From the NCBI GenBank assembly GCA_017472565.1, contig JAFUPY010000028.1:1-47570 (forward strand): a stretch of DNA of 47,570 nt. The letters are read 5' to 3'. The position numbers were made by a program, and so were the translations under genes. Below the pieces are notes generated by a model. It made no database searches. It was not told the DNA's origin and was given only the letters and a program-made list of their open reading frames with translations. Source of the DNA: Eubacterium sp. GTDB lineage: Bacteria > Bacillota > Clostridia > Lachnospirales > Lachnospiraceae. Positions 8,913 to 43,417 of the stretch are shown here, piece after piece (positions within the stretch are counted from its first letter, which is position 1; the number at the start of each line of letters is the position of its first letter).

Positions 8913-8930
8913 AATTACCATTTGGTAATT
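8913..8930. repeat. Perfect inverted repeat AATTACCA-TT-TGGTAATT
   Basis: Two 8-base arms separated by TT, in the gap between the ATPase gene and the small protein/adhesin operon. The form suits an operator for a dimeric regulator upstream of the adhesin promoter region; the regulator is unknown. Confidence 0.4.
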
Positions 8931-8967
8931 ATTCTCCGGCATATCCAAAATTGCCCATTTTTCGGGG

Positions 8968-9022
8968 TTTGGGGGACATTCCCCCAAAAGTAACAGTCCG
9001 TTCGTTTTAACGAACGAGCTGT
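8968..9022 (-). terminator. Tandem hairpins after the ATPase gene
   Basis: Two stem-loops lie just beyond the ATPase stop. The first (8993-9022) has arms ACAG..CGTTCG and CGAACG..CTGT. The second (8968-8988) has arms TTTGGGGG and CCCCCAAA. Neither has a long T tract, but together they plausibly end transcription of the ATPase gene. Confidence 0.55.
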
Positions 9023-9026
9023 ATTT

Positions 9027-27708: not shown

Positions 27709-29352
27709 TTATCTTGGTGAATAAGAGGTATGTAAAAGTGCATGCGCCTTTTCGCTGCCAGGAGCACCAAGATACTCATCGTAAAGTACTTTCACGGATG
27801 TATTTTCATCAGATCTGCGTACATCTTTTTCTTCATCGTTTTTGTGAAGAGCTGCTGCACGATCACCAATTACGTCAGTGAGAACCTGAACGGATGCTGG
27901 CTGATATGGCTGTCCGCCACCATTTACACAACCGCCTGGGCATGCCATGATTTCAATAAAATCATATTCTACTTCACCAGCTTTCACTTTTGATAACAGT
28001 TCATTTGCTTTTGCAAGACCGGATACAGCGATGCCTTTTACATCTTTACCTGCAACACGGAGAGCCGCTTCCATTACACCACCTGTTGCACCAAAGATTA
28101 CGGCTGCTCCAGTTCCTTCGCCCATAAGATCGTCGAATTTTTCGTTTGGAAGAGCTGCAAGCTGAATCTCAGCTTCTTTTAACATCTTGCCAAGCTCGTT
28201 TGTTGTAATAGAAATATCAACATCCTGTAATTCTTCTCTTGTAAGCTCGAATTTCTTCGCTGTACAAGGCATAACACTAACTACTACCATATTTTCTTTT
28301 GCTACGCCTAACTTCTCTGCAAGATAAGATTTTGCCACAGAACCAAACATCTGCTGTGGAGACTTACAGGTAGAAATGTTATCTAACATATCTGGATAGA
28401 AGTGTTCTGCGTATTTGATCCAACCTGGACAACAGGATGTAATCATTGGAAGTACGCCATCGTTTTCAATTCTGCCTACCAATTCATTTACTTCTTCCAT
28501 AATAGTAAGATCGGCTGCAAAGGAAGTATCAAACACCTTGTCAAAACCAAGCTTGCGGCATGCTGCTGCAATACGGCCTTCTACGTCAATGCCTACTGGG
28601 AATTCAAATGTCTCACCAAGAGTTGCACGAACGGCTGGAGCCACCTGTACTACAACGTATTTTTCTTCGTCTGCCAAAGCTGCTTTTACTGCTGCGGTGC
28701 TGTCTTTTTCATATAATGCGCCAACTGGACATACAGCAACACACTGTCCGCAGTTTACACAGCTTGCTGCTGCAAGACCTGCTGGAGAGGATGGCTGAAC
28801 AACAGTGTCAAGGCCTTTGCCTGTTGCAACAATGGCAGATACTGCCTGTAATTTTGCACAAGCGTTGATACAACGTTTACACTTGATACATTTGCTGTTG
28901 TCACGAACCAGGACAACAGAAGTTGTATCCAGTTCTAATAATTCAGGTTTTGCTTTGTTTTCTGCTTCATCAGTAAAACCATATTCGTGAAGTAATGTCT
29001 GTAATTCACATGTTTCAGAGCGGAAACAGTTTAAGCAGTCTTTGTTATGTGTTTCTAAGATTGCTGTTAATGCTGCCTTTCTTGCTGCCATAACAGCTGG
29101 TGTCTTTGTCTGGATCTCCATACCTTCTTTGATACGGGTTGTGGATGCATTGACTACCTGGCCATCTACTTCTACCACACAAACTCCACTTTCGTCGATA
29201 TCATTAACACCTTTTAAGTAATAGAGTGTTGGAACCGGCTGGTTCATAAACTCTCTTTTAAACTTCATTGTTTCAAAGGAAGCATCGAGAATGGTGATTC
29301 CTTTTTTCATGGTATAATCGTAACCATTGATTTTAATATTCACTGTACTCAT
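27709..29352 (-). CDS. [FeFe] hydrogenase, module 1, with degenerate [2Fe-2S] domain
   Basis: 547-residue group A [FeFe] hydrogenase. AGGAGG six bases before the ATG at 29352 sets the start. Residues 1-85 keep the [2Fe-2S] fold pattern, but the ligand positions read Y44, S55, C58, S70, so three of four Cys are gone. Next come the His-ligated cluster (H102, C106, C109, C115), two [4Fe-4S] motifs (C155-C165, C198-C208), and the H-cluster motifs TSCCPGW (305-311), MPCTAKKFE (361-369) and ACPGGCVNGGGQP (470-482). The proton-path residues in LTIMEE and the Cys in TSCC are kept. About 31 residues present in the module 2 paralogue between MEAALR and VSGLA are missing. It exchanges electrons with protons/H2; the partner is probably the upstream flavoprotein. 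No HydB/HydC or maturase gene is in the window. Confidence 0.88.
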   Translation of the reverse strand: MSTVNIKINGYDYTMKKGITILDASFETMKFKREFMNQPVPTLYYLKGVNDIDESGVCVVEVDGQVVNASTTRIKEGMEIQTKTPAVMAARKAALTAILETHNKDCLNCFRSETCELQTLLHEYGFTDEAENKAKPELLELDTTSVVLVRDNSKCIKCKRCINACAKLQAVSAIVATGKGLDTVVQPSSPAGLAAASCVNCGQCVAVCPVGALYEKDSTAAVKAALADEEKYVVVQVAPAVRATLGETFEFPVGIDVEGRIAAACRKLGFDKVFDTSFAADLTIMEEVNELVGRIENDGVLPMITSCCPGWIKYAEHFYPDMLDNISTCKSPQQMFGSVAKSYLAEKLGVAKENMVVVSVMPCTAKKFELTREELQDVDISITTNELGKMLKEAEIQLAALPNEKFDDLMGEGTGAAVIFGATGGVMEAALRVAGKDVKGIAVSGLAKANELLSKVKAGEVEYDFIEIMACPGGCVNGGGQPYQPASVQVLTDVIGDRAAALHKNDEEKDVRRSDENTSVKVLYDEYLGAPGSEKAHALLHTSYSPR

Positions 29353-29366
29353 CACGTTCCTCCTGC

Positions 29367-31139
29367 TTAACAATTCGCAAAAAATGTTGCTTCATCGTAT
29401 TCATCTACATGGCCTTCTGGGATTTCATATCCTACTGGACGTACTGGATATTTCCACATTGGGATATCTTCTGTCCAAAGTTCCATTTCACCATCAGCAC
29501 CCTGCTTGATGTTGATCCATTTCAACCAATTTTTATTATCTGTTTCCGGATAATCTGCGCGGTAATGTGGATACATGATACCACGTGTTTCTTTTCTCAT
29601 TTCTGCTGTACGGAAAATCATTTCCAGCGCAAGAATGTTGTCTGCTGCTTCTAAGCATTTTGCAAGACCATGTGGGTCTGTTGCACCAAGTTCTGGAACA
29701 ATTGCTTTCATCTGCTTGATATCAGCAAACACTTTTTCAAATGTAGACTGATCTTTGATAATTGCATATTTTACATCAAAAATATATGTTTCGATCATAT
29801 CGAAGATTTCTTTTGGACTGCGTCCATTTGGACGGCTCAGTGGAGCATAGATTTTTTCTTTTAATGCTGCGATCTGATCCAGGTTCAGTTCATCCCAGCT
29901 AGCATTTGCTGCGTATGGAGCTACAGAATCACCTGCCATCATACCTGTTGTAGAAGCAAATCCAAGTCCGTCACCACGTGTCCAGCCAAAATAAGCACAG
30001 CCCTGTGTTACCATCTTACCAGTTGCCCATAAGCCTTCTACATTTGTTCTCATCTGGTTATCAACCTTCATAGGTTCTAACTGGATAACGGTCTTGATGG
30101 TTGTTTCAGGTACGCTTCCTACATCGCCGATATTTTTCGCTGTTTTTGTAAATACCAAATGTTCCCAATGCATCTTATCGCGGAACATACGCTGTGTAGA
30201 TTCGTGCATGTCAGTACCACCGATCATTTCACGAACTTCGTCCGGATGTTCTAAGTCAACCGTCAATGGGCCGTTTCCTTCTGCAACTTCTTTAACCATT
30301 GCCTGTACAAGTGCTGGAGTAACTTCCCATTCCTTGTGTCCAATATAATGATCTGTCAGGTTTAAACCATTTTTGTTGCAGATCATATTAAATCCACCGT
30401 AGATTGGTGTGTTTGTTTTCTTAAATACAACGTCAACCTGTGTAGAGAATTCCACGTTGGCTACCTGTGCGCCTACACGATATGCAGCGCCTACACCAGT
30501 ACCATAGCCCATGAATTCCAGGCCGATTTTCTTGAAATGGCACCCCTGTGTTGCAAGAACCACTGCTTTTGCGTGGAAAATCTTACATTCCATGTGATCC
30601 ATGTCAAAACCGATCGCACCGATGGTCTTGCCCGCGTCGTTTGTCAAAAGTTCAAATACATTTACACGGTTCAAAAGACGAATGCCAAGTTTTAATGCAT
30701 GGGCACGAAGCTGTGCACAAATGTTGATGGATACACCCCCCATATCCAGTGCATTTGGAATAAATGGAAGTGGAGTTGCTTCTCCATCCTCATTACAGGA
30801 AGTGATAACACCACAGTGCTTCATATAATCAATAGAGTCTTTGTGATATACCAGGTAATCTCTTAACATTTCCTGGTCATTGATAAATGGTGTGTGAGCA
30901 TGCACCAGATAATTCAATGCATTTTTAACACCATCTGGATGTTTGGATGTGGAACGAATACCGTTACCAGCCTTTGTTGCCTGTCCATTCCATCCGATAA
31001 TACCTTTATCAATTACCAAAATATCTAAATTTGGTTTGTTTTCTTTTGCTCTGATTGCTGTAACCAGACCAGCCATACCGCCACCAACGATCAGGATGTC
31101 AGCGGTAAAAAGTTCGCCATAATCTTTAACGTTTGCCAC
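29367..31139 (-). CDS. AprA/fumarate-reductase-family flavoprotein, module 1
   Basis: 590-residue FAD-dependent oxidoreductase with GTG start after AAGGAGG. The dinucleotide fold GGGMAG is at residues 19-24. The GQATKAGNG segment replaces the HT.A..GG of succinate dehydrogenase, so the His for covalent FAD is absent, as in AprA and aspartate oxidase. A second FAD motif is ATQGCHFKKIG, and the C-terminal third (RGIMYPHYRADYPETDNKNW) resembles AprA. No signal peptide, so cytoplasmic. Length (590) is shorter than true AprA, and no sulfate-activation or Dsr genes are present, so APS reduction is unlikely. It lies 14 bases downstream of the ferredoxin gene and 14 bases upstream of the hydrogenase start. 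The substrate, probably a small organic acceptor or donor, is unknown. Confidence 0.85.
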   Translation of the reverse strand: MANVKDYGELFTADILIVGGGMAGLVTAIRAKENKPNLDILVIDKGIIGWNGQATKAGNGIRSTSKHPDGVKNALNYLVHAHTPFINDQEMLRDYLVYHKDSIDYMKHCGVITSCNEDGEATPLPFIPNALDMGGVSINICAQLRAHALKLGIRLLNRVNVFELLTNDAGKTIGAIGFDMDHMECKIFHAKAVVLATQGCHFKKIGLEFMGYGTGVGAAYRVGAQVANVEFSTQVDVVFKKTNTPIYGGFNMICNKNGLNLTDHYIGHKEWEVTPALVQAMVKEVAEGNGPLTVDLEHPDEVREMIGGTDMHESTQRMFRDKMHWEHLVFTKTAKNIGDVGSVPETTIKTVIQLEPMKVDNQMRTNVEGLWATGKMVTQGCAYFGWTRGDGLGFASTTGMMAGDSVAPYAANASWDELNLDQIAALKEKIYAPLSRPNGRSPKEIFDMIETYIFDVKYAIIKDQSTFEKVFADIKQMKAIVPELGATDPHGLAKCLEAADNILALEMIFRTAEMRKETRGIMYPHYRADYPETDNKNWLKWINIKQGADGEMELWTEDIPMWKYPVRPVGYEIPEGHVDEYDEATFFANC

Positions 31140-31152
31140 TATTTTTTCCTCC

Positions 31153-31434
31153 TTATTCGTTGTCTAATTTTACAAGTCCAGCGCTGTACTCTAATGGATC
31201 TATCTGCAATGTGGAAATTGGCTGAATATCAATAATGTTATTCAAGCAATCCATCTCACACTGATAGCAAAGTACACATTCATCTGGGTATTTTGGATAT
31301 GCGTGACCATGTTCTTCATCCCACTGCCATACGTTCTCCTGGCAGCGACGGATGCATCTTTTACATCCACAGCAACGATCTGTGTCAACCACGTATCGGA
31401 TACTCTGCTGCTGAGCTTTGTTTGTAACGATCAT
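31153..31434 (-). CDS. Two-[4Fe-4S] ferredoxin, AprB-like, module 1
   Basis: 93 residues with two cluster motifs, CCGCKRCIRRC and CVLCYQCEMDC, separated by about 30 residues, plus a C-terminal extension (residues 60-93). This matches the arrangement of AprB, where the tail wraps the flavoprotein. AAGGAGG seven bases before the ATG at 31434 sets the start. It is the first gene of the module and is expected to carry electrons between the flavoprotein and the hydrogenase. Confidence 0.88.
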   Translation of the reverse strand: MIVTNKAQQQSIRYVVDTDRCCGCKRCIRRCQENVWQWDEEHGHAYPKYPDECVLCYQCEMDCLNNIIDIQPISTLQIDPLEYSAGLVKLDNE

Positions 31435-31483
31435 ATTTTTTCCTCCTTCATACAAGCATTTTGTACGGAACTTCTATGGTAAC

Positions 31484-31489
31484 AGTATA
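31484..31489 (-). promoter_or_regulatory. Extended -10 promoter of module 1
   Basis: On the minus strand TG-G-TATACT about 50 bases before the ferredoxin start; no good -35 box, which is common for activator-dependent promoters. It faces away from the regulator gene at 31662. Confidence 0.5.
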
Positions 31490-31621
31490 CCAGTATCCTT
31501 TCATGAAAAGTTCCGTGTTGTTCTCAGAATTTACTATAGTCATTTTCTACACTGGTGTTGAAAAATTGGGGGCTGGGTGACCACAAGCTTCCGGATACAG
31601 GTAGAATTGTCTATAGATTCG

Positions 31622-31630
31622 TGCTATACT
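31622..31630 (+). promoter_or_regulatory. Extended -10 promoter of regulator 1
   Basis: TG-C-TATACT about 32 bases before the regulator ATG, with no clear -35 box. Confidence 0.5.
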
Positions 31631-31661
31631 ATTTAAAAATTAGTAAAAGGAGACGCATAAC

Positions 31662-33212
31662 ATGTACGTAGGATTAAAAAATATCGAACATCATTTATCC
31701 ACCTATCCGACTTACCTGACATTCTCAGACGACACCCATTGTCTGACAGGCTGGAACAAGCTATCTTATGCGCCTAAACCATATAGCAGTCACATTCTCT
31801 ACATCTGTGAGTACGAACCGGCTTTATCAGAAATCGAATTTTCAGCAAATATGCATATTTTGTGTATCATTCCTGAGGACACAGATTTTTCTCAGGATTC
31901 CCTGAACCAGATTAGAAACACTTTTCCGGATGATGCCAGTATCCTATTCCTGCAAACAGGGGATTCTGCTCCAATCTATTCAGAATTACAGCAATACTAC
32001 AACATTCAAAGTGGTGTTGGTATGTTTGGGCAGACGCTCTTAGAGCATCTTGCTTTTGGGGATAGTCTTCAGGATGCCATTGAATATGCATATCGAGTTC
32101 TTATGAATCCAATCTTTGTATTTGATACCAACTACAATCTGATTGCCGCCACTTGGGAATCCATTTACAAGCTTGGCCTGGAAGACGATGTGATCAAAAA
32201 CAAAGGTTTTTCCAATAATGATTATAAAATGGCAAACCAGGAACGATTTCACGATCGTATGATCAAAAGCGAGGTTCCAATCAAACGATCCAATCAAGAG
32301 TTGGGATATGAACAGTTGATCTGTTCTATCAACACCCAAAAGAACCTTGGGCACATCGTTGTTTCTGCGATAAACAAGCCATTAGAACCGATTGACACGG
32401 AATTCTTATTAATCTTAAAGAAGTTTGTCAATCAGCTCTTATCCAACGACAATTTTATCCGAAATGCCAAGGGATTTAATTATGAATACTTTTTAAAGGA
32501 TTTGCTGGATGAAAAGATCAAGGCTGACCGCGTTTTTTCAGAGCGTACAGAATACATACAGAATGAATTTGTAGGCAATCTTTACTGCATGGTAGTAGAA
32601 TCTGCACGAAGCATGAACGCCATCAACAATCGACAAATGCGAAATATTATAGAAAGCCGTTTTCCGAATTCAAAGGTGTTGATCTACAATGGTCAGATTG
32701 TGTGTATCTTCTCCATTTCAAGCAATCACCTGCTACCAAAAGAATATCGGCAAATGGCTGCGAATATTTGCAAAGAACATGGTCTGTTCGCCGGACTTAG
32801 CAACTGTTTCCAGGATATATTAGAGCTGGCTGAGTATTATAATCAGGCTCTTCGCTCGATTGAGCTTGGAATCCGTCAGGAAAACACACCGAACCTGTTC
32901 TGCTATGATGAACACTATATGGAACACCTGACCAGTGTCTTTTTGCAGAAAGAACATCAGGCCAGAGCCTTCTGTCATCCAAAGATGCAGTTTTTGATGG
33001 ACTATGACAAGCTTCACAAATCAGAGCTTGCGTATACGTTCTACATGTATCTGATCCATGAGCGTAATCTGGCTGCAACCGCAGACGCAATGGACATGCA
33101 CCGCACCTCTCTGGTGTATCGTTTTAAGAAGATCAATCTTCTGATCGGCGAAGATTTTGATGATTACAAAGAACGAATGCATATGATATTGTCCTATGAG
33201 ATGTATCAGTAA
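31662..33212 (+). CDS. PucR/CdaR-type regulator 1
   Basis: 516-residue transcription regulator. The last 60 residues are the PucR C-terminal HTH (ADAMDMHRTSLVYRFKKINLLIGEDFDDYKERM). The middle has a GAF/GGDEF-like sensing region typical of CdaR, with LRSIELGI before the HTH. The N-terminal 130 residues are less conserved. AAAGGAG precedes the ATG. It is divergent from module 1, which it presumably controls in response to a small organic effector. The regulator beside module 2 has the same length and order throughout. Confidence 0.85.
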   Translation: MYVGLKNIEHHLSTYPTYLTFSDDTHCLTGWNKLSYAPKPYSSHILYICEYEPALSEIEFSANMHILCIIPEDTDFSQDSLNQIRNTFPDDASILFLQTGDSAPIYSELQQYYNIQSGVGMFGQTLLEHLAFGDSLQDAIEYAYRVLMNPIFVFDTNYNLIAATWESIYKLGLEDDVIKNKGFSNNDYKMANQERFHDRMIKSEVPIKRSNQELGYEQLICSINTQKNLGHIVVSAINKPLEPIDTEFLLILKKFVNQLLSNDNFIRNAKGFNYEYFLKDLLDEKIKADRVFSERTEYIQNEFVGNLYCMVVESARSMNAINNRQMRNIIESRFPNSKVLIYNGQIVCIFSISSNHLLPKEYRQMAANICKEHGLFAGLSNCFQDILELAEYYNQALRSIELGIRQENTPNLFCYDEHYMEHLTSVFLQKEHQARAFCHPKMQFLMDYDKLHKSELAYTFYMYLIHERNLAATADAMDMHRTSLVYRFKKINLLIGEDFDDYKERMHMILSYEMYQ

Positions 33213-33235
33213 GAAATAATAGGAAGATATATTAC

Positions 33236-33273
33236 GAAAACCCCACGAGTTATCGCTCGTGGGGTTTTCTTTT
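33236..33273. terminator. Bidirectional terminator between regulator 1 and MFS 1
   Basis: Perfect 14-base arms GAAAACCCCACGAG and CTCGTGGGGTTTTC with a 6-base loop, then TTTT on plus and GTAATATAT on minus. It ends the converging regulator 1 and module 2 operon transcripts. Confidence 0.88.
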
Positions 33274-33339
33274 AGAGGTTGACTTTATGGAATAAACCTG
33301 CTTAAATCTCTGGGGGTTGTTTTAGGCAGGAACCTCTTG

Positions 33340-34566
33340 CTATTTAGATACTTGCTGTGGCCTGCGGATTCCAAAGAATACCACAAATCCCACAACCGTC
33401 AATACAATCATCATAAAGATGGTACTCATGTAGGACTGACTCATATCAAAGAGACGTCCTGCGATGGTTGATGCAAAGGATGCGATCAACAGGTTTGTGT
33501 TGATAATGGAAAAATTCAGCGGATAATAGGTTCTTCCAAAGAAATCGCTGATAATGGCTGAGTTGGTTGGTGTTACACCACCATAAGCAAAACCGCCAAC
33601 AACAAATCCTATAATAATGAACATAAACTGCCCTGAAATCAACGCAAAGATCAGAATCAGCGCCGCAATAATATTGATGACCATCGTCAACAACATGGTA
33701 AGCTTATAGCCTTTTTTGTCATAGAGCGCGCCAAAACAAACGCGTCCAATACCGTTAAAAATGGAAATCAGACCTACTACTGTGGCAATATTTCCACTGG
33801 AAACCTCAGGTCCTACCTGTGTAGCGATACCGCTGGCCTGGGACAGCAAAACAAGTCCTACGCCACTGATTACGATTGCCCACACATAGTACAACCAGAA
33901 TACTGGTTTGCGAACCATCTTTCCTGTGTTGATATCCAATGCAGGTTCCCGCATTGCTTTTTTCTTTGTAGCTGCAGGTGGTTTGTAATCTGGACCAGGT
34001 TTTTTGATGATCAGACCACAGACAACCAGAACTACCAGCAGAAGAATGGCAAACATTCGAAATGTTCCTGTCCATCCATCTGTTCCGTCTGCCGGGGACA
34101 GCGCCGCAAATACCTTACCAATCAGGAAGCTGCTGATACCAAATCCCATCAGCATAATGCCGGACAGTAAGCCTTGTTTGTCAGGGAACCAGGCACTGAT
34201 AGTGCCCATAACCGTATTATAAGTAAAGCCTGAACCAAATCCGCCTAACACACCAAATCCAAGATACAGTGTGATCAAGGAATTCTCTGTCATGGATGCC
34301 ACCATAAAACCAGCCAGCAGCATGATTGCTGATACAAACAAAAATACCTTGGCATTCATTTTCTTAGCAAGTACACCAGCAACCAGACATCCCACACAGA
34401 AAAACGCCATAACCAATGTAAATGTCAATGACAACTGGGCAACTGTCCAATCCGGATGGGAGGCACTGATTGTTTTTGACATGGTGGACCATGCATAAAT
34501 CATGCCAACTGCCAGCATAACAATGACACCCACAATGGCATACATCCATCTATTTAAACTTTTCAC
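33340..34566 (-). CDS. OxlT-like MFS transporter 1
   Basis: 408-residue major facilitator with 12 predicted helices. GTG start after AGGAGG. It shows MIYAWSTMSK and the GFGSGFTYNTVMGTISAWFPDKQGLLSG segment typical of the oxalate:formate antiporter / monocarboxylate subfamily, and a central basic loop (residues 195-220). It should carry an organic anion in or out. It is the last gene of the operon thiolase, DUF35-ACP, phosphotransacetylase, transporter, with a 9-base gap, so it probably imports the substrate or exports a product of that pathway. Confidence 0.85.
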   Translation of the reverse strand: MKSLNRWMYAIVGVIVMLAVGMIYAWSTMSKTISASHPDWTVAQLSLTFTLVMAFFCVGCLVAGVLAKKMNAKVFLFVSAIMLLAGFMVASMTENSLITLYLGFGVLGGFGSGFTYNTVMGTISAWFPDKQGLLSGIMLMGFGISSFLIGKVFAALSPADGTDGWTGTFRMFAILLLVVLVVCGLIIKKPGPDYKPPAATKKKAMREPALDINTGKMVRKPVFWLYYVWAIVISGVGLVLLSQASGIATQVGPEVSSGNIATVVGLISIFNGIGRVCFGALYDKKGYKLTMLLTMVINIIAALILIFALISGQFMFIIIGFVVGGFAYGGVTPTNSAIISDFFGRTYYPLNFSIINTNLLIASFASTIAGRLFDMSQSYMSTIFMMIVLTVVGFVVFFGIRRPQQVSK

Positions 34567-34575
34567 TTTTTCCTC

Positions 34576-35586
34576 CTATTTTGCTTTCTTATAAGCAGCA
34601 AGTACGCTAAGAAGAGCGATATCATTGTAGAGGATATCGTCTGTATCTGATCTGGAGCAGTCTAAGATTGGAAGTCTGAATCCCTGATAAAGTGGTCCAA
34701 ATACCTGACAGCGAGCAAAGCGCTGGATCAGTTTGGTACCTACGTTACAGCCTGCCGCATCTGGGAAAATCAGTACGTTTGCCTGTCCTGCAACTTCGCT
34801 TGGACGTTTTACTTTTTTGGCACCTACACGTTCGTCAATGGCTGCATCCGCCTGAAACTCACCGTCAATCTTAAGATCTGGGCGCAACTGCTGTGCCAGT
34901 TCTACTGCTGCACGGACTTTTTTCACTGGTTCGCTTAAACCGCCAGAGCCATCTGTGGAATAGGATACAAACGCACAGCGTGGTTCGATTCCAGTTACCG
35001 CTTCAAAGGTTTCACAGGAAGCAATGGCAATACTTGCGTGCTGCTCAATGTTTGGCTCGATACAGACTGCACCGTCTGACATACCAAAGCAATTGCCCTG
35101 TTTGCCATCAAAATCTTCCATTTCCAACAACAACAGACCAGATGCTGTTGGACAGTTCTTATCCATACCGATAATACTGTTTGCTGCTAATACAAACTCA
35201 TAAGTTGTGGTATCTACACCAGCTAACGTTCCATCTACTTCTCCCACTGCTTCCAACAGTGTCGCAAGATAGAGTGGATTGCCTACACGTTTGCCAACGA
35301 ATTTTTTTGGCATTACTTTTGTAGGCATGGTGTCGTATTTTTCTAACAATGCTTCTCTATAGGCTTCATCGTTGACATCAACAATCTTAATTCCTGTAAT
35401 ATCCAGTCCATATCCCTTGGCAGCTTCTTCGATTGCTGCTGGACTGCCAACAAAAACAATATTTGCTATGCCATTCTGTACAGCCTTAACAGAAGCCTTC
35501 ATCATGTACTCATTGGTACATTCTGGGATAGCGATGGTCTGCACATTGGCTTTCGCTTTTTCATAAATAGATTCAATAAAGCTCAT
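34576..35586 (-). CDS. Phosphate acetyltransferase-family enzyme
   Basis: 336-residue phosphotransacylase, close to the size of clostridial Pta. Conserved parts are IPECTNEYMM, VGNPLYLATLL, SYSTDGSGG, IDGEFQADAAID, EVAGQANVLIFPDAAGCNVGTKLIQ and GPLYQGFRLPILDCSRS. The last differs from the usual DLSRG. It would exchange acyl-CoA plus phosphate for acyl phosphate plus CoA; acetyl is likely but another short acyl is possible. The ATG at 35586 has AGGGAG about 11 bases upstream, and an earlier ATG at 35610 lacks one. In this operon it would convert a thiolytic product to acyl phosphate for substrate-level phosphorylation. Confidence 0.85.
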   Translation of the reverse strand: MSFIESIYEKAKANVQTIAIPECTNEYMMKASVKAVQNGIANIVFVGSPAAIEEAAKGYGLDITGIKIVDVNDEAYREALLEKYDTMPTKVMPKKFVGKRVGNPLYLATLLEAVGEVDGTLAGVDTTTYEFVLAANSIIGMDKNCPTASGLLLLEMEDFDGKQGNCFGMSDGAVCIEPNIEQHASIAIASCETFEAVTGIEPRCAFVSYSTDGSGGLSEPVKKVRAAVELAQQLRPDLKIDGEFQADAAIDERVGAKKVKRPSEVAGQANVLIFPDAAGCNVGTKLIQRFARCQVFGPLYQGFRLPILDCSRSDTDDILYNDIALLSVLAAYKKAK

Positions 35587-35638
35587 TTGAGATCTATCTC
35601 CCTTCCTCATATTTAAAACAAAATAAAGGTGTATCAAA

Positions 35639-36436
35639 CTACATCAATTCCTTAACCTTGGCTACAAAATCTGCCAATGTATTTAAGTTTCCAGCTTCCT
35701 GAATCTCGATGGTTACGCCAAGTTCGTCTTCGATTTCAGAAATCATAACAATCATTTTCATAGATTCGTTGGAAAGGTCTTCACGAATATCGGTAGCCAT
35801 GGTCAATGTAGAGGCATCCACATCGTAGCCGATTGCTGCACATTCAATGACAGTCATAGCAATTGGATCTGTGGAAACATCGATTTCTTCTGCTGGTTCT
35901 GCAGGCGCAGATGACGCGGAACCTGTGTTATCTCCATAGCCTTCCAAGTCTTCCCATTTTGCTGTGATGATTGGAGCCATGTTGAATTCGCTATCTTCGT
36001 CTTCTAACACCCAGGAAACCACCTTGGTATCTACGTCCTGTATCAGATATGGTTTTACATACACATCTTCACTTTCAATCTTTGCTTCAAATGCATCAAT
36101 CATGGCAGGATTGATGTGAATCAAACTGGAGCAAAAATGGTCGATGTTTGGAATCTGAATACCAATTGCCCAGTAATCGCCGTTTACTTTACGGAAATCA
36201 GGATCGCCAAAGGCACCCATGGTTGGCAGAACCTGTGTTACTTTACCACGCATATCACTGATGTCGATCCACTCAGTGTCAAGACATCCACATTCGTTAC
36301 AGCAAAGATAAGGAGGATATTCGATATGATCACAGCAGGTGCACTTTCGGCCAAGAATCTTACCTTCTTCTAAGGCATCGTAGTAACCCTGCACGATACG
36401 TACCATATCTTTTTTGGTCATGTCGATTTTAGCCAT
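35639..36436 (-). CDS. DUF35 zinc-ribbon/OB protein fused to an acyl carrier domain
   Basis: 265 residues. The N-terminal half is a DUF35-type partner protein: a zinc ribbon (GRKCTCCDH..CCNECG, residues 30-55) followed by an OB fold. After an Ala/Glu/Pro linker (residues 170-190) the C-terminal 75 residues look like an acyl carrier protein: DLSNESMKM, with Ser as the expected phosphopantetheine site, and a closing L..VE-type helix. DUF35 proteins are essential partners of SCP2-type thiolases and Ltp2-like aldolases; fusion to a carrier domain is unusual. AAGGAGG precedes the ATG. It lies two bases past the thiolase stop, so the two probably form one complex. Confidence 0.85.
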   Translation of the reverse strand: MAKIDMTKKDMVRIVQGYYDALEEGKILGRKCTCCDHIEYPPYLCCNECGCLDTEWIDISDMRGKVTQVLPTMGAFGDPDFRKVNGDYWAIGIQIPNIDHFCSSLIHINPAMIDAFEAKIESEDVYVKPYLIQDVDTKVVSWVLEDEDSEFNMAPIITAKWEDLEGYGDNTGSASSAPAEPAEEIDVSTDPIAMTVIECAAIGYDVDASTLTMATDIREDLSNESMKMIVMISEIEDELGVTIEIQEAGNLNTLADFVAKVKELM

Positions 36437-36438
36437 CT

Positions 36439-37749
36439 TTAGTTTCCTCCTTTTCCACTATTTTTTAACATGGTTACGAGCACGTTCTGTCCACCACCAA
36501 ATCCTCGGATCATGGTGTAGTCAATCTTGTTCTTCACCTGTGTTGTACCACGTTCTCCACGCATCTGTAATACTGCTTCGTATAAATCATGCAGGCCGGA
36601 TGCTGAAGATGCATGACCATACTGGCAACGTCCGCCATGTGGCTGTACCGGACGATCACCGTCAAAGGCTGCACGTCCCTCTAACATATACTTCCAGCCC
36701 TGTCCTTTTGGCAGATATTCACACTGTTCTGCCGCAAGCATTTCTGACTGCATGAAGAAGTCGTTGGTGAGGAACAGATCCATATCCGCACCTGTAAGAC
36801 CTGTAAGATCACGAACCTGCTGATATGCATTTCTCGTAGCGATTCGTTCCAGTTCTGGTGTGTTGTATTCTACACAAGAATGGCCGATACCAAGAACTTC
36901 TACCCAATGATCGGTGTATTTGTGAGCCATCTCTGTTGGGCACACGATTACTGCAGCCGCACCATCACAGCGCTGTTCAAAGTGACAGGCTCTCATATAC
37001 TTACCAATCAATGGATTGTACTTGGAATGAAGATATTCTTCTGCAGTCTCCATGCCGTATTTGTGAGCCAGGTCTTCAAAATTATCATCAAAAAGTCCCA
37101 ACGGATTCAATGCTGCTGCACGACGACAGTTGATTGCCATGTTAGTCATTGTTTTATCAATATCCTCAGGACTTACGTTATTTTCTTTATAATAATGATC
37201 CAGCCAGGACTCAGAGCTGAATGGAAGTACACCACGGGTAAACAGGTTGTAATCTCTGGTTACGGTGGAACAAAGTACCTCATGGAACATAGAGTCTGTA
37301 CCGAATCGACGTTTTGTCAGTACTCTTGTTGGATGTGCGATGGAATATGGCATATCAATACAGCCACTTAATACCACATCGTACATACCAGAAGCTACGT
37401 AGCTTACTGCTGTTTCCAATGCTACATAACCGGTAGCGCAAGCTTCACTCTGGTGCATGGAGCCTTTGCCCTTCATGCCCAGCCAGTTGGCAACATGAAT
37501 ATTGGCTGTACCAAAGTTACTGATCCAACCAGGGCCAGCCTGCCCATGGATAAAAAAGTCGATGTCTTTACCGCTGACACCAGCGTCCTTCATGGCATCT
37601 CTTGCTGCATAGCCAAAAAGTTCACCTTCTGTTAAGCCATCACATTCCGGATCGTCCATAACACGAACGAATGGTGTGGCACCAACGCCAATGATGGAGA
37701 CACTTCTTTTAAAGGGCTGCAATTTTGGAATGTTATCATTAAAGCTCAT
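36439..37749 (-). CDS. Thiolase-fold enzyme (SCP2-thiolase-like)
   Basis: 436 residues. GAGGGG precedes the ATG at 37749; the frame stays open 20 codons further up without a site. The thiolase pattern is present: SIIGVGATPF, the nucleophile Cys in SEACATG (residue about 100), and GHASSASGLHDL with the conserved His. The usual closing C.GGG motif reads RGFGGGQ, so the second catalytic Cys is absent. In the family this points away from a classical Claisen thiolase and towards an acyltransferase or an Ltp2-like aldolase that works with DUF35. It is coupled to the DUF35-ACP gene. The carbon-carbon bond acted on is unknown. Confidence 0.82.
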   Translation of the reverse strand: MSFNDNIPKLQPFKRSVSIIGVGATPFVRVMDDPECDGLTEGELFGYAARDAMKDAGVSGKDIDFFIHGQAGPGWISNFGTANIHVANWLGMKGKGSMHQSEACATGYVALETAVSYVASGMYDVVLSGCIDMPYSIAHPTRVLTKRRFGTDSMFHEVLCSTVTRDYNLFTRGVLPFSSESWLDHYYKENNVSPEDIDKTMTNMAINCRRAAALNPLGLFDDNFEDLAHKYGMETAEEYLHSKYNPLIGKYMRACHFEQRCDGAAAVIVCPTEMAHKYTDHWVEVLGIGHSCVEYNTPELERIATRNAYQQVRDLTGLTGADMDLFLTNDFFMQSEMLAAEQCEYLPKGQGWKYMLEGRAAFDGDRPVQPHGGRCQYGHASSASGLHDLYEAVLQMRGERGTTQVKNKIDYTMIRGFGGGQNVLVTMLKNSGKGGN

Positions 37750-37786
37750 ATTGTTTTCCCCTCTTTCTGTATCGTCATAGGCAACA

Positions 37787-37817
37787 ATGGACAGGTGGGT
37801 CTCAAGCACCTGTCCAT
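37787..37817 (-). repeat. Stable hairpin between hydrogenase 2 and the thiolase gene
   Basis: Perfect 11-base arms ATGGACAGGTG and CACCTGTCCAT with a 9-base loop, in the 124-base gap. No T tract follows on the minus strand, so it looks like an mRNA processing or attenuation element within one operon more than a full terminator. Confidence 0.55.
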
Positions 37818-37873
37818 CGCCCGTATTTACTAAAAATACTAAGTATCTATTATGGGAAATGATACTTTTTACA

Positions 37874-39613
37874 TTATCTTGCTACATAAGTTGTGTGTAA
37901 CAACTGATGTGCTTTTTCACTGCCTGGCGCACCAAGATAGGTATCGTACAGTTCGATGATTGCCGGGTTTTCATGGGATTTACGAATTGGGCTGTTGGCA
38001 TCGTTCTTATAAAGAACGGCTGCACGTTTGCCGCGAACATCTACCATATCCCATGTTGCAGCCAACTGGTGAGGCTGACCACCGCCATTGATACATCCGC
38101 CTGGGCAGGACATTACTTCGATGATGTGGTAATCTGCTTCCCCAGCTTTTACTTTTTCTAATAATGCATCTGCATTTGCAAGACCAGAAGCAACTGCAAC
38201 TTTTACTGTTGTTCCTGCAATGTCATAAGAAGCTTCCTTGATTCCTTCCATACCACGTACATCGCAGAATTCTAATTTTGGAAGTGTTTCGCCTGTGAGT
38301 TTTTCTACTGCAGTACGAAGAGCTGCTTCCATAACACCGCCAGTTACACCAAAGATTACGCCTGCACCTGTACCGATGCCCAGTGGATCATCAAATGGTT
38401 CAAATGGCACTGCTGTTAACTTCACTTCTGCTTCTTTAATCATTCTTGCAAATTCTCTTGCTGTGATTGCGATATCCACATCTGGAACACCTGCACCGTC
38501 CTGATCGTCACGGGTAATTTCAAACTTCTTAGCAGAACATGGCATTACGCTGACCATAACGATGTCTTCTTTTGCAATGCCCATTTTTTCTGCATAGTAA
38601 GATTTTGCTGTTGCACCGAACATCTGCTGTGGAGACTTGCAGGATGACATATTAGCCAATAATTCTGGATGTTTGTCTTCACAATGTTTTACCCATGCCG
38701 GACAGCAGGATGTCATGATTGGCAATGGACCATTGCCATTTAATCTTTCAATAAATTCGTTGGCTTCTTCCATAATTGTTAAGTCTGCGGAGAATTTGGT
38801 ATCAAATACTTTATCAAATCCCAGTGCTCTTAATGTTTCTGGAAGTCGTTTTTCTACGTCTGTACCGATGTTGAAGTCAAATTCTTCACCAAGGGATGCT
38901 CTTACTGCAGGAGCAACCTCTACCATAACGTATTTGTTAGGATCTGCAATGGCATCAAATACCTGTGCGGTTGCATCCTTTGCATACAGTGCGCCAACTG
39001 GACATGCGATGATACACTGGCCACAGTTTACACAGCCAGATGCAATCAGACCATCTGCAGATACTGGTTCTACAACCATATCCCAGCCTTCGCCTGTTGC
39101 TTTGATCGCTTCTACACCCTGGCCATTCTTACATACAGCCACACATCTGCCGCAGCGGATACATTTGTTGTGATCACGAACGATGATTGCTCTGTCATCG
39201 ATTGCAACTTTTTTGTCAGCATCCATCTTGCTGCTGGAGATTTCGTATTTATGTAACAATTCCTGTAATTCACAGGTACCTGGACGGTGACAGTTGATAC
39301 AGTCTTTGTCATGTTTTGCTGCAATATCAGCTAATACTGCTTTTCTTGCCTCCGTACATTTTGGAGACTTTGTCTGGACTTTCATGCCCTCATATACTTT
39401 ATATACAGATGCGTTTACCAGTTCTGCTTCGCCTTCTACTTCTGCAACACAAACGCCACTCTCATCTACTTCCTTCACACCTTTTAAGTAGTAGAGTGTT
39501 GGAATGCTCATGTCTAACTGATCGTAGTTTACTTCTCTGATCGCTTCAAGAATGGTCAAACCATCTGATACCTGAATGTCTAATGTATCTACATTGATTG
39601 TAATTTTACTCAT
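37874..39613 (-). CDS. [FeFe] hydrogenase, module 2, with degenerate [2Fe-2S] domain
   Basis: 579-residue paralogue of the module 1 hydrogenase. AAGGAGG eight bases before the ATG at 39613 sets the start. The N-terminal domain again reads Y41, S52, C55, S69 at the four ligand positions. Then come the His-cluster (HDKDCINCHRPGTC), ferredoxin motifs CIRCGRCVAVC and CVNCGQCIIACP, and H-cluster motifs TSCCPAW, MPCSAKKFE and SCPGGCINGGGQP. Unlike module 1 it keeps the full H-domain with the DVRGMEGIKEASY segment. The ending GAPGSEKAHQLLHT is near-identical to module 1. The three-gene order and spacings match module 1. The direction of catalysis (H2 release or uptake) is not decidable from sequence. 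Confidence 0.9.
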   Translation of the reverse strand: MSKITINVDTLDIQVSDGLTILEAIREVNYDQLDMSIPTLYYLKGVKEVDESGVCVAEVEGEAELVNASVYKVYEGMKVQTKSPKCTEARKAVLADIAAKHDKDCINCHRPGTCELQELLHKYEISSSKMDADKKVAIDDRAIIVRDHNKCIRCGRCVAVCKNGQGVEAIKATGEGWDMVVEPVSADGLIASGCVNCGQCIIACPVGALYAKDATAQVFDAIADPNKYVMVEVAPAVRASLGEEFDFNIGTDVEKRLPETLRALGFDKVFDTKFSADLTIMEEANEFIERLNGNGPLPIMTSCCPAWVKHCEDKHPELLANMSSCKSPQQMFGATAKSYYAEKMGIAKEDIVMVSVMPCSAKKFEITRDDQDGAGVPDVDIAITAREFARMIKEAEVKLTAVPFEPFDDPLGIGTGAGVIFGVTGGVMEAALRTAVEKLTGETLPKLEFCDVRGMEGIKEASYDIAGTTVKVAVASGLANADALLEKVKAGEADYHIIEVMSCPGGCINGGGQPHQLAATWDMVDVRGKRAAVLYKNDANSPIRKSHENPAIIELYDTYLGAPGSEKAHQLLHTTYVAR

Positions 39614-39626
39614 GGTCATACCCTCC

Positions 39627-41387
39627 TTATTTCGCTCTGTCGCCTACATAATATTCTTCCACCTGGCCTTCTGGAATTTCATATCCTTCTGGACGGAATG
39701 GATATTTCCACAGTGGAATGTCTTCTGTAAACAGTTCAGGTTCTCCATTTTCATCCAGCTTGATATTGATCCATTTTAACCAGTTCTTATCATCCTGTTC
39801 CGGATAATCTTCGCGGAAGTGAGGATAGAATACGCCACGGGATTCGGTTCTCATTAAAGCAGCTCTGAAAATCATTTCCAGACATAATAAGGAGTCTACT
39901 GCTTCATGACATTTTGCCAATGTATGTGGATCATCTGCGGAAAGAAGTGGAATCAGCTTCTTCATTTCAGCAACATCTGCAAGACCTTCCAGTAAACTTG
40001 CTTCTGACTTCACGCTGAGCTTGTCTGTACCAAAACCATAGGTTTCAATCTTGTCAAAGATTTCATATGCTGTATGACCTGTATTGCGGTGAAGTGGTGC
40101 ATATAATTTTTCTTTGTATGCTGCCACCTGATCGTAGTTCAGATCTAATTTGTCTGTTTTCTGAGCGAACTGACCCATATCACGGCCAGCACGAAGACCT
40201 GTCTGAGCTGCGTTACCAACACCATCACCACGGTGCCATCCAAAGTATGCACTACCCTGGTAGCTGATCTTACCTGGTGCCCATAAGCCCTCTACATCTG
40301 TCTTGAAGTTGTGGTTGGTCTTTAATGGTTCTGCCTGAAGTCTCTGGTCAATGGTGATTTCAGGTTTGTCTTCATAATCCATCGTATGTTTTGCCGCTTT
40401 GCTGGAAACGTAATCTTCCCATTCAATCTTATCTGGCATAAGACGGCCATCGCCCATGGTCATGCCTTCCCAACCGATACTCATCAGTGTCTCGTCTGGC
40501 TGACTTAAGTCTACATACAGAGGACCTCTGCCTTCTCTTACTTCCTTAATCATACCTCTTAACAGAGGAATACTGATTTCAGGTGCATTTGGTGCATAAA
40601 TCTTGGAAATATTTTCCCCATTCTGGTTGAAAATCAGGTTGTAACCACCGTATACAGGTACATTTGTGCCCTTGAATACAATCTCAATCTGTGTAGAGAA
40701 CTCAATGTTACGAACCAGAGCGCCCGCACGCATTGCAGCACCAACACCAGTACCATAACCCATGAACTCGCGGCCCAGCTTTTTGAACTGTGCACCGTGG
40801 GTTGCAATGGCTACTGCTTTCGCGTGGAAAATGTGGTATTCGCCGGATTCCATATCGATACCAACAGCACCACATGCCTGACCGTTGTTTGTTAACACTT
40901 CAAAAATGTTTACACAGTCAAGGATACGAACATCCAGTTCCAGTGCTTTTCTTCTCAGACGTTCAATGGCACGAAGCTCGATACCGAAACCAACCAATTT
41001 GCTTTCTGGATGAACCCAGTACTTCATAGAACCGTCTTCGTTATGAGAAATCAACACGCCACAGAACTCTTTCAGCCAACGAACTGCTTCTGTGTTTGTT
41101 GATAAATAATCGTATAATAAATCCTGGTCATTTAAGTATGGTGTCTGGTTTTTAACCATCCATTCTGTAGATTCCATAACATCCTGGAAATCTGCATGAC
41201 CTACAATACCGTTACCAGCCTTGGTAGACTGTCCGGCATAACCTGCATAACATCTTTCTACAATCAGAACATCCTGATCTGGTGCAGCTTCTTTTGCACT
41301 AATCGCTGCTGTCAAACCAGCAAATCCACCACCAACGATAAGGATATCTGACTCATATACTTTACCCAAATCTTTTACATTTGCCAT
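39627..41387 (-). CDS. AprA/fumarate-reductase-family flavoprotein, module 2
   Basis: 586 residues, homologous to the module 1 flavoprotein end to end, from MANVKD to the closing GYEIPEG. FAD motif GGGFAG at 19-24; GQSTKAGNG in place of the covalent-FAD His motif; GYGTGVGAAMRAGA and YFGWHRGDGVGN near the second FAD contact; C-terminal RGVFYPHFREDYPEQDDKNW. AGGAGG precedes the ATG. Differences fall mostly in residues 95-125 and 285-330, where the capping (substrate) domain is expected, so the two may act on different substrates. The gene sits 13 bases past the ferredoxin gene and 13 before the hydrogenase. Confidence 0.85.
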   Translation of the reverse strand: MANVKDLGKVYESDILIVGGGFAGLTAAISAKEAAPDQDVLIVERCYAGYAGQSTKAGNGIVGHADFQDVMESTEWMVKNQTPYLNDQDLLYDYLSTNTEAVRWLKEFCGVLISHNEDGSMKYWVHPESKLVGFGIELRAIERLRRKALELDVRILDCVNIFEVLTNNGQACGAVGIDMESGEYHIFHAKAVAIATHGAQFKKLGREFMGYGTGVGAAMRAGALVRNIEFSTQIEIVFKGTNVPVYGGYNLIFNQNGENISKIYAPNAPEISIPLLRGMIKEVREGRGPLYVDLSQPDETLMSIGWEGMTMGDGRLMPDKIEWEDYVSSKAAKHTMDYEDKPEITIDQRLQAEPLKTNHNFKTDVEGLWAPGKISYQGSAYFGWHRGDGVGNAAQTGLRAGRDMGQFAQKTDKLDLNYDQVAAYKEKLYAPLHRNTGHTAYEIFDKIETYGFGTDKLSVKSEASLLEGLADVAEMKKLIPLLSADDPHTLAKCHEAVDSLLCLEMIFRAALMRTESRGVFYPHFREDYPEQDDKNWLKWINIKLDENGEPELFTEDIPLWKYPFRPEGYEIPEGQVEEYYVGDRAK

Positions 41388-41400
41388 TTCTCTTCCTCCT

Positions 41401-41652
41401 CTATCCTAACAATGGATCGTTCTTGATCATGTCTAACGGAATAATTTCGATACAATTGTTCAGACATGCCATCTCACATTTGTAGCAGTGTACACATTCC
41501 TGAATATACTTTGGAATGGCACATTTGTTTTCCTTGTCCCAGCGCCATACATCTTCGTCACAGGCACGGATACAACGTTTACATCCGCAGCATTTATCTG
41601 TGTCCACAATGTGTTTTACACTAAACTGCTGTCCCATACATGTTGCAATCAT
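41401..41652 (-). CDS. Two-[4Fe-4S] ferredoxin, AprB-like, module 2
   Basis: 83 residues with CCGCKRCIRAC and CVHCYKCEMAC motifs and a short C-terminal tail, paralogous to the module 1 ferredoxin but about 10 residues shorter at the end. AAAGGAG precedes the ATG at 41652. It is the first gene of a run that continues through flavoprotein, hydrogenase, thiolase, DUF35-ACP, phosphotransacetylase and MFS 1. Confidence 0.88.
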   Translation of the reverse strand: MIATCMGQQFSVKHIVDTDKCCGCKRCIRACDEDVWRWDKENKCAIPKYIQECVHCYKCEMACLNNCIEIIPLDMIKNDPLLG

Positions 41653-41728
41653 AAAAATTCTCCTTTCATATAACCACATACTTTTTCATATTTACGTGCA
41701 AAGAGTTACGCTCTATGGGCATTCACCC

Positions 41729-41755
41729 ACAATTCTCTTGCTTACATTGTATCAA
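41729..41755. repeat. Spaced inverted repeat in the module 2 regulatory region
   Basis: CTCTTG and CAAGAG arms about 12 bases apart between the module 2 operon and regulator 2 (approximate limits). It could be a regulator binding site; weak. Confidence 0.3.
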
Positions 41756-41816
41756 GAGTTTTTTCCATATTTTTTGGTAAACGTCCTCTAATTATGGTCT
41801 TTCTTTTGTGCACCAA

Positions 41817-41845
41817 TAGACAAAGCTATTTTTTTCTGCTATGAT
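41817..41845 (+). promoter_or_regulatory. Promoter of regulator 2
   Basis: TAGACA (41817-41822), a 17-base spacer ending in TGC, and TATGAT (41840-41845), about 20 bases before the regulator start codon. Confidence 0.65.
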
Positions 41846-41866
41846 GACGGAAATGGGGGTGTTTTT

Positions 41867-43417
41867 ATGTTTATTAATCTGACGCATATTCAACAGTTAT
41901 TTAAGGACAAAAAAACAATTGTACATAATCCGGATGAACATCTGTGCCTTACGGGATTTCAGTATTTGAAGATGGCGCCGACCAGCTATACCCATCACAT
42001 GGTTTATCTGTGTGATAGTTTGGAGGAATTGGAAAAGGCACCATTGTTACAGAACATGAACCTTCTTCTTGTTTCTGACAATATAAAAAAAGCTGAAACA
42101 GAATTTAAATCCCGCATTACAATTCCTATGGGCTACTTACTAATTGAAGGAATCGAGATTATGGATGTGACGTTGGAGCTACAGCGCTTTTTTGATACCA
42201 GCTGTGCGGTAGGATTCCTGGCAGATACTTTTATGGATTATCTGATAGAAGATACCAGTATCCAACAGATTGTAGAGCACGCAGCCCGTAATGCATTGAA
42301 AAATCCAGTATTAGTTTTTGATGCAAGCTTCAATTTGATTGCATCCTATACTGATTTTCCTGACAATAAACTCAGCGAATCCACACATCGGCTATTGGCA
42401 AACAAAGGATTCTCTGCTGCCGAATTTAACCAAGCAAAAAATAGCCGTATTCACGAGCGAATGATGTCTTCAGAAGAGCCAATTACCTATTACAACGAAA
42501 TGGTTGGCAACAATCAGATGCTTTGCTCTATAACCACCAAGCGTAACTGGGGACATATTGTAATGGATGATACCAACCACCCATTTACCCCTACTGACAA
42601 AATGCTTTTTTATCTGTTAAAACGCGTGCTTCACGAACGTATGCAGAAAAATGAATTCCTTAGAAACAATAAGGGCTATAACTACGAGCACTATCTGCGA
42701 GACCTTTTGGATGGAAAAATCGCCACTAATAAGAACTTTATGGATCGTATGAATTACTTCAACGCAGACTTTTCCGGCAATTTCTTCTGTCTGGTTGTGG
42801 AGGGTGCGAGAAGTGGTAATCTGGTGGATATTAAGCATATTAGAAACCAGTTTGAAAACAAGTTATCCAATACCAAGTCTTTGATTTATGGAGACCAGTT
42901 GGTTGTTTTGTTCTGCATGGGCAATAAACAGAATCTTTCCAAAGAAGATTTGAAAAAGGCCACCGCTATTTGTGTGGATCAAGGTATTTATGCCGGTTTA
43001 AGTAACCAATTCTCCAACATTACAGAAATTCATGATTACTACAAACAAGCACTTCGCTCCATTGAGATTGGAATTCAGTATAAAAATACACCAGGCATGT
43101 TCCGTTATCAGGACTACTTTATGCAGCACATGATGAATCTGTTTATTCAGAAGGAATCTGCCAAAACCTATTGTCATCCTGCTATGCGAACCTTGTTGGA
43201 ATACGATGAAGAAAACCAGACACAGTTGGCAGACAGTCTCATTGAATGGATCAAATGTGAACGCAATGCCTCTGCAGCCGCAGACGCCATGCAAATACAT
43301 AGAAATACCATGATCTACCGATTAAAGAAAATCGAAGAACTGGTAACCATCGATTATGATGACATCAAGGAGAGACAGTATCTTGCGCTGTCACATGAAT
43401 TAAATAAAGCAAAATAA
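41867..43417 (+). CDS. PucR/CdaR-type regulator 2
   Basis: 516 residues, the same length as regulator 1 and alignable throughout (RNALKNPVLVFDASFNLIASYTD, NKGYNYEHYLRDLLDG, LRSIEIGIQYKNTPGMF). The C-terminal HTH_30 is AAADAMQIHRNTMIYRLKKIEELV. GGGGGTG precedes the ATG. It is divergent from the module 2 operon. The conserved pairing of each regulator with one enzyme module suggests the whole four-gene unit was duplicated and then diverged. Confidence 0.85.
   Translation: MFINLTHIQQLFKDKKTIVHNPDEHLCLTGFQYLKMAPTSYTHHMVYLCDSLEELEKAPLLQNMNLLLVSDNIKKAETEFKSRITIPMGYLLIEGIEIMDVTLELQRFFDTSCAVGFLADTFMDYLIEDTSIQQIVEHAARNALKNPVLVFDASFNLIASYTDFPDNKLSESTHRLLANKGFSAAEFNQAKNSRIHERMMSSEEPITYYNEMVGNNQMLCSITTKRNWGHIVMDDTNHPFTPTDKMLFYLLKRVLHERMQKNEFLRNNKGYNYEHYLRDLLDGKIATNKNFMDRMNYFNADFSGNFFCLVVEGARSGNLVDIKHIRNQFENKLSNTKSLIYGDQLVVLFCMGNKQNLSKEDLKKATAICVDQGIYAGLSNQFSNITEIHDYYKQALRSIEIGIQYKNTPGMFRYQDYFMQHMMNLFIQKESAKTYCHPAMRTLLEYDEENQTQLADSLIEWIKCERNASAAADAMQIHRNTMIYRLKKIEELVTIDYDDIKERQYLALSHELNKAK

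Follow-up and report, generated by a model that had tools for sequence, protein, structure and literature searches.

Paired hydrogenase-flavoprotein-ferredoxin modules in a Eubacterium genome and their possible role in hydrogen-linked polyphenol metabolism

The window considered here is the whole 47,570-nucleotide stretch that starts at base 1 of contig JAFUPY010000028.1 (C105 below) in Eubacterium sp. assembly GCA_017472565.1, a metagenome-assembled genome (MAG) of 2.1 Mb that is 68.6% complete. On its minus strand the same trio of genes is present twice: a ferredoxin (FD), a flavoprotein (FLV) and an [FeFe] hydrogenase (HYD), each trio with a divergent 516-residue regulator of the PucR type. 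A preliminary description of this DNA had reported these two modules, and all the genes are where it placed them. Its count of two holds for the window but not for the genome, which has a third trio on contig C32, ordered HYD-FD-FLV. A separate regulator accompanies that trio, as do a thiolase, a phosphotransacylase, transporters and OBACP, in which a zinc-ribbon/OB-fold protein and an acyl carrier domain are fused. The three trio hydrogenases are the only PF02906 matches in the assembly.

Modules A and B are 56% identical in FD, 51% in FLV, 57% in HYD and 38% in their regulators (PUCR_B is 38-41% identical to PUCR_A and PUCR_C). With mechanically assigned starts, FD and FLV are 13 bp apart in both modules, FLV_B and HYD_B are 7 bp apart, and FLV_A and HYD_A overlap by 7 bp; later ATG starts, read from the translations, would give FLV-HYD gaps of 13 and 14 bp, in line with the 13-18 bases first described. 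The families guessed at that stage agree with Pfam and NCBIfam, mostly at scores under the specific family cut-offs. An operon of seven minus-strand genes may span 41679 to 33340, which would add a thiolase-superfamily enzyme (THIO), OBACP, a phosphotransacylase (PTA) and a transporter to module B (Table 1). Spacing among these last four genes is 1-9 bp; between HYD_B and the probable ATG of THIO there is a gap of 124 bp, in which lies an inverted repeat (37787-37817; two perfect 11-bp arms, 9-bp loop), not followed by a T-run and possibly an attenuator or operator.

Table 1. Module genes and their neighbours, in window coordinates.
Feature	Position	Strand	Basis
FD_B, 2[4Fe-4S] ferredoxin (AprB-like)	41401..41679	-	family and motif matches
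FLV_B, AprA/FrdA-superfamily flavoprotein	39627..41387	-	Pfam/NCBIfam and solved relatives
HYD_B, group A [FeFe] hydrogenase, 3/4 N-terminal [2Fe-2S] ligands gone	37874..39619	-	Pfam/NCBIfam, alignment
THIO, thiolase-superfamily enzyme, related to PhlC and benzoylsuccinyl-CoA thiolase	36439..37809, probable true start ATG 37749	-	
OBACP, zinc-ribbon/OB-fold (DUF35-like) protein fused to acyl carrier domain	35639..36436	-	ACP matches below cut-off
PTA, phosphotransacylase	34576..35637	-	Pfam/NCBIfam
MFS_A, OFA/monocarboxylate-type transporter	33340..34566	-	Pfam/NCBIfam
PUCR_B, PucR/CdaR-type regulator, 516 aa, divergent from module B	41867..43417	+	
FD_A, 2[4Fe-4S] ferredoxin	31153..31455	-	Pfam/NCBIfam
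FLV_A, AprA/FrdA-superfamily flavoprotein	29367..31139	-	Pfam/NCBIfam
HYD_A, [FeFe] hydrogenase, 3/4 [2Fe-2S] ligands gone	27709..29373, probable true ATG 21 bases in	-	
PUCR_A, PucR/CdaR-type regulator, 516 aa, divergent from module A	31662..33212	+	Pfam/NCBIfam
MFS2_B, transporter, likewise beside module B relatives in L036-L039	43562..44872	-	
OYE_B, FMN/FAD ene-reductase (Oxidored_FMN and Pyr_redox_2), likewise by module B relatives in L037 and L039	45018..46940	-	
Small protein adjoining OYE_B, weak muconolactone-isomerase match below cut-off; same in L037 and L039	46995..47306	-	

A scan of one genome per species yielded 36 loci in 27 genomes (counted by contig name), among them Eubacterium ramulus, Flavonifractor, Pseudoflavonifractor, Slackia exigua and gut and rumen Lachnospiraceae. 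The search alignment was made of hydrogenase-type flavoproteins only, so these counts speak for that type. FD adjoins FLV in 33 of the 36 loci and HYD does so in 32; in the other four, FLV is separated from the contig end, on the side expected for HYD, by 0, 8, 13 and 2 bp, and HYD is itself truncated by a contig end in some loci (L040, L050). The trio is complete in every one of the 32 loci whose contig reaches far enough, which is more than chance would give, and the arrangement first noticed in one genome is thus kept outside it. The order is FD-FLV-HYD in 23 loci and HYD-FD-FLV in nine. Similarity to reference proteins places a PucR-like gene in 27/36 trio loci, a transporter in 26/36 and a UroD-like gene in 9/36. 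A suspected FD-FLV fusion in L053 was rejected as an out-of-frame extension (open reading frame list, FD frame). Distribution is patchy: FLV matches at 1e-60 occur in 13 of 397 genomes of the family, with the trio seen in six of these, and at 1e-75 in one other genome among 398 of the phylum. The hydrogenase-flavoprotein-ferredoxin unit is well supported, and no existing description of it was recognised in the open-licence PMC literature, among the matches listed and in the excerpts they offer.

The hydrogenase carries its own mark of the association. NCBIfam and PDB matches point to HydA of HydABC enzymes as its closest relative; on the NF040763 HydA model (NADH-dependent A6; cut-off 765 bits) HYD_B scores 772.2 and HYD_A 689. 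The FS4C ligands (His and three Cys), the eight Cys of FS4A/B and the four of the H-cluster are kept in all compared rows. At the N-terminal [2Fe-2S] site, 31 of 32 distinct trio hydrogenases have lost three of the four cysteines and the remaining one has lost two, whereas the ten non-trio hydrogenases taken from five relatives all keep the four. The trio sequences make up a single clade (100/99) in a tree of 42 rows, with an A/B branch (97/82) and a C branch (100/100). Distances are correlated across 32 triplets (FLV-HYD r=0.94, FLV-FD 0.98; 0.93-0.98 over FLV, FD and HYD) and across the 22 A/B triplets (FLV-HYD 0.71, FLV-FD 0.93), with none of 2000 permutations as high. FS2 and FS4C are described in the available text of PMC6288185 as two arms of a fork, FS4C being the probable exit to ferredoxin. 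Loss of FS2 with retention of FS4C would fit electron delivery to a ferredoxin such as FD.

The partners usual for such a hydrogenase are absent from its neighbourhood. In agreement with the preliminary description, the window has no HydB (NuoF-like) or HydC (NuoE-like) gene; the C32 locus has none either. PF01257 has no match in the MAG, which is weak evidence of absence at this completeness, and PF01512 has one RnfC-like match (by eye) and one weak one. All five relatives that are more than 90% complete have HydC/NuoE homologues; in G021, G224, G230 and G291 one is within ~4 kb of a hydrogenase other than the trio's, and five of the seven strong PF01257 matches in relatives are within ~4 kb of a non-trio hydrogenase gene. 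Ownership of the trio hydrogenases by a HydB/HydC pair, which the preliminary description had raised against itself, was therefore rejected on neighbours, on the tree and on the loss of [2Fe-2S] ligands that the ten other hydrogenases keep.

The FD family has two CxxCxxCxxxC motifs in all 51 proteins collected, and the best solved relative of FLV is the PAPS reductase alpha subunit. Family scores, with no search aimed at QmoABC, led us to reject a place in AprAB sulfur metabolism (AprA model TIGR02061, 63.3 and 72.0 bits on the FLVs with a cut-off of 641.75; AprB model TIGR02060, 31.5 bits on FD_A with a cut-off of 135.65), as well as identity of FLV with a succinate/fumarate enzyme (best SDH/FRD flavoprotein model NF006131, 161.0 and 150.6 bits with a cut-off of 587). 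Thirteen FLV loci of 4.0-4.7 kb have no HYD match; FD is present in all 13, and 11 have a phloretin/DAPG-hydrolase-like (PF18089-like) neighbour or fusion. FLV-hydrolase fusions occur as single polypeptides of 813 and 818 aa (L027 748-3189 and L028 1495-3951), with the hydrolase domain recognised at 5.9e-73 and 3.5e-61. FLV is thus tied to C-C cleavage genes.

Cleavage genes also recur beside the trios. Comparison with reference proteins finds a thiolase in 22 of the 36 loci, OBACP and PTA in 22 each and a butyrate-type kinase in 21, with all four together in 17; an acyl-ACP-thioesterase-like gene is present in 17 and a PF18089-like gene in ten. The kinase of this neighbour block is related to butyrate kinase 2. 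THIO has the nucleophilic Cys, the catalytic His and the zinc-ribbon/OB neighbour of a thiolase with a DUF35 partner; Cys and His are invariant in 25/25 thiolases, the carrier Ser of OBACP is present in 23/23, and so are the four zinc-ribbon Cys in 23/23 thiolase partners. The OBACP paralogue on C32 scores above the ACP cut-off, its zinc ribbon reaching 20.6 with a cut-off of 23.2 and its DUF35 structure match an E of 0.0015. At a contig end (L144 4500-8855, G000:C7) thiolase, OBACP, PTA and kinase recur as a diverged block (39-46% identical) beside a PucR-like regulator, with no trio in the stretch. Many hydrogenase-bearing modules may cleave their substrate with formation of a thioester, which would let PTA and the kinase make ATP.

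FLV also co-occurs with the phloroglucinol pathway. Among the 397 family genomes, a DPGC-like ring-opening gene (1e-60) is present in 12/13 FLV genomes and in 8/384 others (Fisher 5.9e-17, phylogeny ignored), and in 6/6 trio genomes as compared to 14/391 others (7.4e-9, phylogeny again ignored). A PGR-like gene adjoins it in all 12 FLV genomes that have it, and 21 of the 27 trio genomes have a DPGC match. In L192 (4419-12365, G229:C3) one strand bears FD, an FLV-hydrolase fusion, an MFS-like gene, a PGR-like gene, TfD, DPGC and TAL. In the Eubacterium genome itself, C117 bears a PGR-type cluster and C5 a second cluster, of the cyclase/BKACE kind; PF18089 has seven matches in this genome, a member of that family matching phloretin hydrolase 5xe5 at 9.9e-44. 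On contig C31 (L143 5769-12152, G000:C31) a PF18089 hydrolase stands with BKACE, CoA transferase and transporter-like genes (by eye), possibly another C-C cleavage route in this genome.

We tentatively propose, at a little under an even chance, that the modules act in polyphenol catabolism as H2-linked flavin oxidoreductases, C-C cleavage then saving energy as ATP. The hydrogenase would exchange electrons with H2 and pass them along its [4Fe-4S] chain; with the [2Fe-2S] arm lost, FS4C is their probable exit, from which they would reach the FAD of FLV by way of the dedicated 2[4Fe-4S] FD. FLV would then reduce a phenolic compound, flavonoid-like or of the acylphloroglucinol type, and so prepare its side chain for removal. 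A phloretin-hydrolase-like enzyme could make the cut, or else the thiolase/OB-fold-ACP pair found in 22/36 loci and in module B. The latter route would leave the acyl group in thioester form, which PTA and the butyrate-type kinase could turn into acyl phosphate and then ATP, and the released phloroglucinol-type ring would enter the PGR-TfD-DPGC-TAL pathway, whose genes lie elsewhere in the genome. A more exact version is doubtful as a whole: HydA, ferredoxin and FAD protein would form a tight H2:polyphenol oxidoreductase complex that dispenses with NAD(P)H and with soluble ferredoxin, and this would feed a retro-Claisen cleavage, tethered to ACP, of phenolic C-acyl groups, ATP being made via acyl phosphate. 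It would mean H2-consuming, energy-conserving polyphenol metabolism in gut and rumen bacteria that rivals methanogens for H2. The preliminary interpretation is supported in part; its suggestion that inducer and substrate differ from module to module would fit the divergence of the regulators and the differing neighbours.

Reduction by H2 is favoured as the direction because FLV relatives pair with acyl-phenol hydrolases and because, in the accessible part of PMC5633678, phloroglucinol feeding captures H2 in the rumen and Eubacterium oxidoreducens is cited as needing H2 or formate to degrade phloroglucinol. The opposite flow, with FLV oxidising its substrate and the hydrogenase releasing H2 as a fermentative electron outlet beside ATP formation by PTA and kinase, is unlikely in our judgement, if still a serious contender. 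ATP-forming genes do adjoin many trios, and HYD_B scores just above the cut-off of the NADH-dependent A6 HydA model, three of four such enzymes being listed as H2-forming in the portion of PMC6288185 at hand. The substrates of acyl-phenol hydrolases, however, would be more readily prepared by reduction than by oxidation. The potentials of many FAD dehydrogenations are, moreover, too high for H2 release.

Coupling within the trio might also be loose, HYD and FD charging the cell's ferredoxin pool and FLV drawing on that pool with no dedicated complex. We find this fairly improbable, given that the trio is complete in all testable loci, that distances correlate and that [2Fe-2S] ligands are lost in 32 trio hydrogenases and in 0/10 of the others compared, even though the 13 hydrogenase-free FD-FLV loci indicate that FLV relatives can use another electron source and HYD_B has diverged more than FLV_B. 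An acyl-ACP pathway (fatty acid, polyketide or branched-acid turnover) with FLV as an enoyl-thioester reductase and polyphenols not involved would account for the ACP domains, the acyl-ACP-thioesterase-like gene of 17/36 loci and an ACP-synthase-like gene in four loci (one Pfam-confirmed), but it is improbable in view of the co-occurring phloroglucinol genes, the relatives fused to phloretin/DAPG hydrolase and the lack of hydratase or ketoreductase among recurrent neighbour clusters, though no search was aimed at these two enzymes.

Several observations weigh against the H2-linked, ATP-saving polyphenol oxidoreductase proposed above. Seven of the ten trio loci with a PF18089-like hydrolase hold a thiolase too, and we rejected the notion that the thiolase simply replaces the hydrolase. 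Module A is without a thiolase block of its own, and the block in the window has no adjacent kinase (kinase-family homologues are found at C5, C7 and C23). An S15/PepX-type hydrolase is present in five of the 36 loci (L042, L045, L050, L051, L058), only L058 having the thiolase-OBACP pair as well, so the modules differ among themselves; these loci are perhaps an ester-substrate variant. Between module B and the loci of FLV_B relatives, identity is 47-62% for HYD_B, 75-81% for FLV_B and 64-87% for FD_B, and HYD_B is placed at the base of the A/B group; HYD and FLV have therefore not wholly evolved in step, which may reflect faster change or replacement of one subunit. The physical link to the phloroglucinol pathway is made only through the hydrogenase-free fusion of L192, 33% identical to FLV_B, and the 36 trio loci contain no PGR-, DPGC- or TAL-like gene at >35% identity, bar one 36% dehydrogenase-like match in L051. 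The pathway is not obligatory, since no DPGC match was obtained in 6/27 trio genomes, counted irrespective of completeness (L046, L049, Slackia exigua L052, L057, L064, L069). Finally, the 397-genome family sample and the 27 trio genomes overlap, several assemblies being the same, and this tempers the co-occurrence counts together with the ignored phylogeny.

The third module, the inclusion of C-C cleavage and ATP-forming genes in the unit and the link to phloroglucinol-type polyphenols go beyond the preliminary description. The H2-polyphenol links offered in the sections of PMC5633678 and PMC12203004 available are NADPH-dependent phloroglucinol reductase and bifurcating [FeFe] together with [NiFe] hydrogenases; in peat, catechin lowered methane while hydrogenase expression went up (PMC12203004, same sections). 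If true, our proposal would connect H2 and polyphenols by a new enzymatic link and give group A [FeFe] hydrogenases a new set of partners. Should H2 drive the breakdown of these plant compounds in gut and rumen bacteria, polyphenols would be a hydrogen sink competing with methane formation. The lost [2Fe-2S] ligands also offer a simple signature for screening genomes and metatranscriptomes.

On contig C70 (L008, G000:C70:4000-14000, 2949-9399) a shorter FAD protein of 485 aa adjoins NuoF-like, NuoG/GltD-like and PucR-like genes (by eye; weak PF01512 match); this set might correspond to the trio modules but draw on NAD(P)H where they draw on a hydrogenase. The window also encodes, at 176-8488, a 2770-aa protein that looks secreted and, by eye, has a von Willebrand-like stretch; it is not related to the modules.

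Among known systems, riboflavin degradation in Lachnospiraceae showed no relation in the available text of PMC12934955, and the [FeFe] hydrogenases described for the flavonoid degraders of Catenibacillus are of groups C3, B and A3, with no mention of the trio in the parts of PMC11170127 at hand. The group A HydABC hydrogenases (NADH-dependent or bifurcating; PDB 7q4v and 8a6t, the best PDB matches) share the HydA fold, the H-cluster and the FS4A/B and FS4C ligands, whereas the trio hydrogenase has no adjacent HydB/HydC genes, has lost its [2Fe-2S] ligands and neighbours an AprA/FrdA-type flavoprotein and a 2[4Fe-4S] ferredoxin. With AprAB, PAPS reductase alpha and fumarate reductase (PDB 8a8o, 1jnr, 1kf6) FLV has in common the FAD_binding_2 and Succ_DH_flav_C domains and an AprB-like ferredoxin partner; it is set apart by scores far under the AprA, AprB and SDH/FRD cut-offs, by its hydrogenase partner and by its C-C cleavage context. 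The anaerobic PGR-DPGC-TfD-TAL pathway (PMC10470551) has a homologous cluster in the same genome and co-occurs with FLV, but its PGR uses NADPH, and the available sections of that paper mention no hydrogenase-flavoprotein unit. Phloretin hydrolase (Phy) and PhlG belong to the family beside or fused to FLV relatives, yet such a gene is present in only 10/36 trio loci, seven of them with a thiolase. PhlB and BbsA are the DUF35-like partners of PhlC and of benzoylsuccinyl-CoA thiolase. To the PhlC acyltransferase subunit and to that thiolase (PDB 5m3k, 7pxp) THIO is a superfamily relative that keeps Cys and His and has an adjoining DUF35-like partner; unlike theirs, its partner carries one or two fused acyl carrier domains and is accompanied by PTA and often by a butyrate-type kinase.

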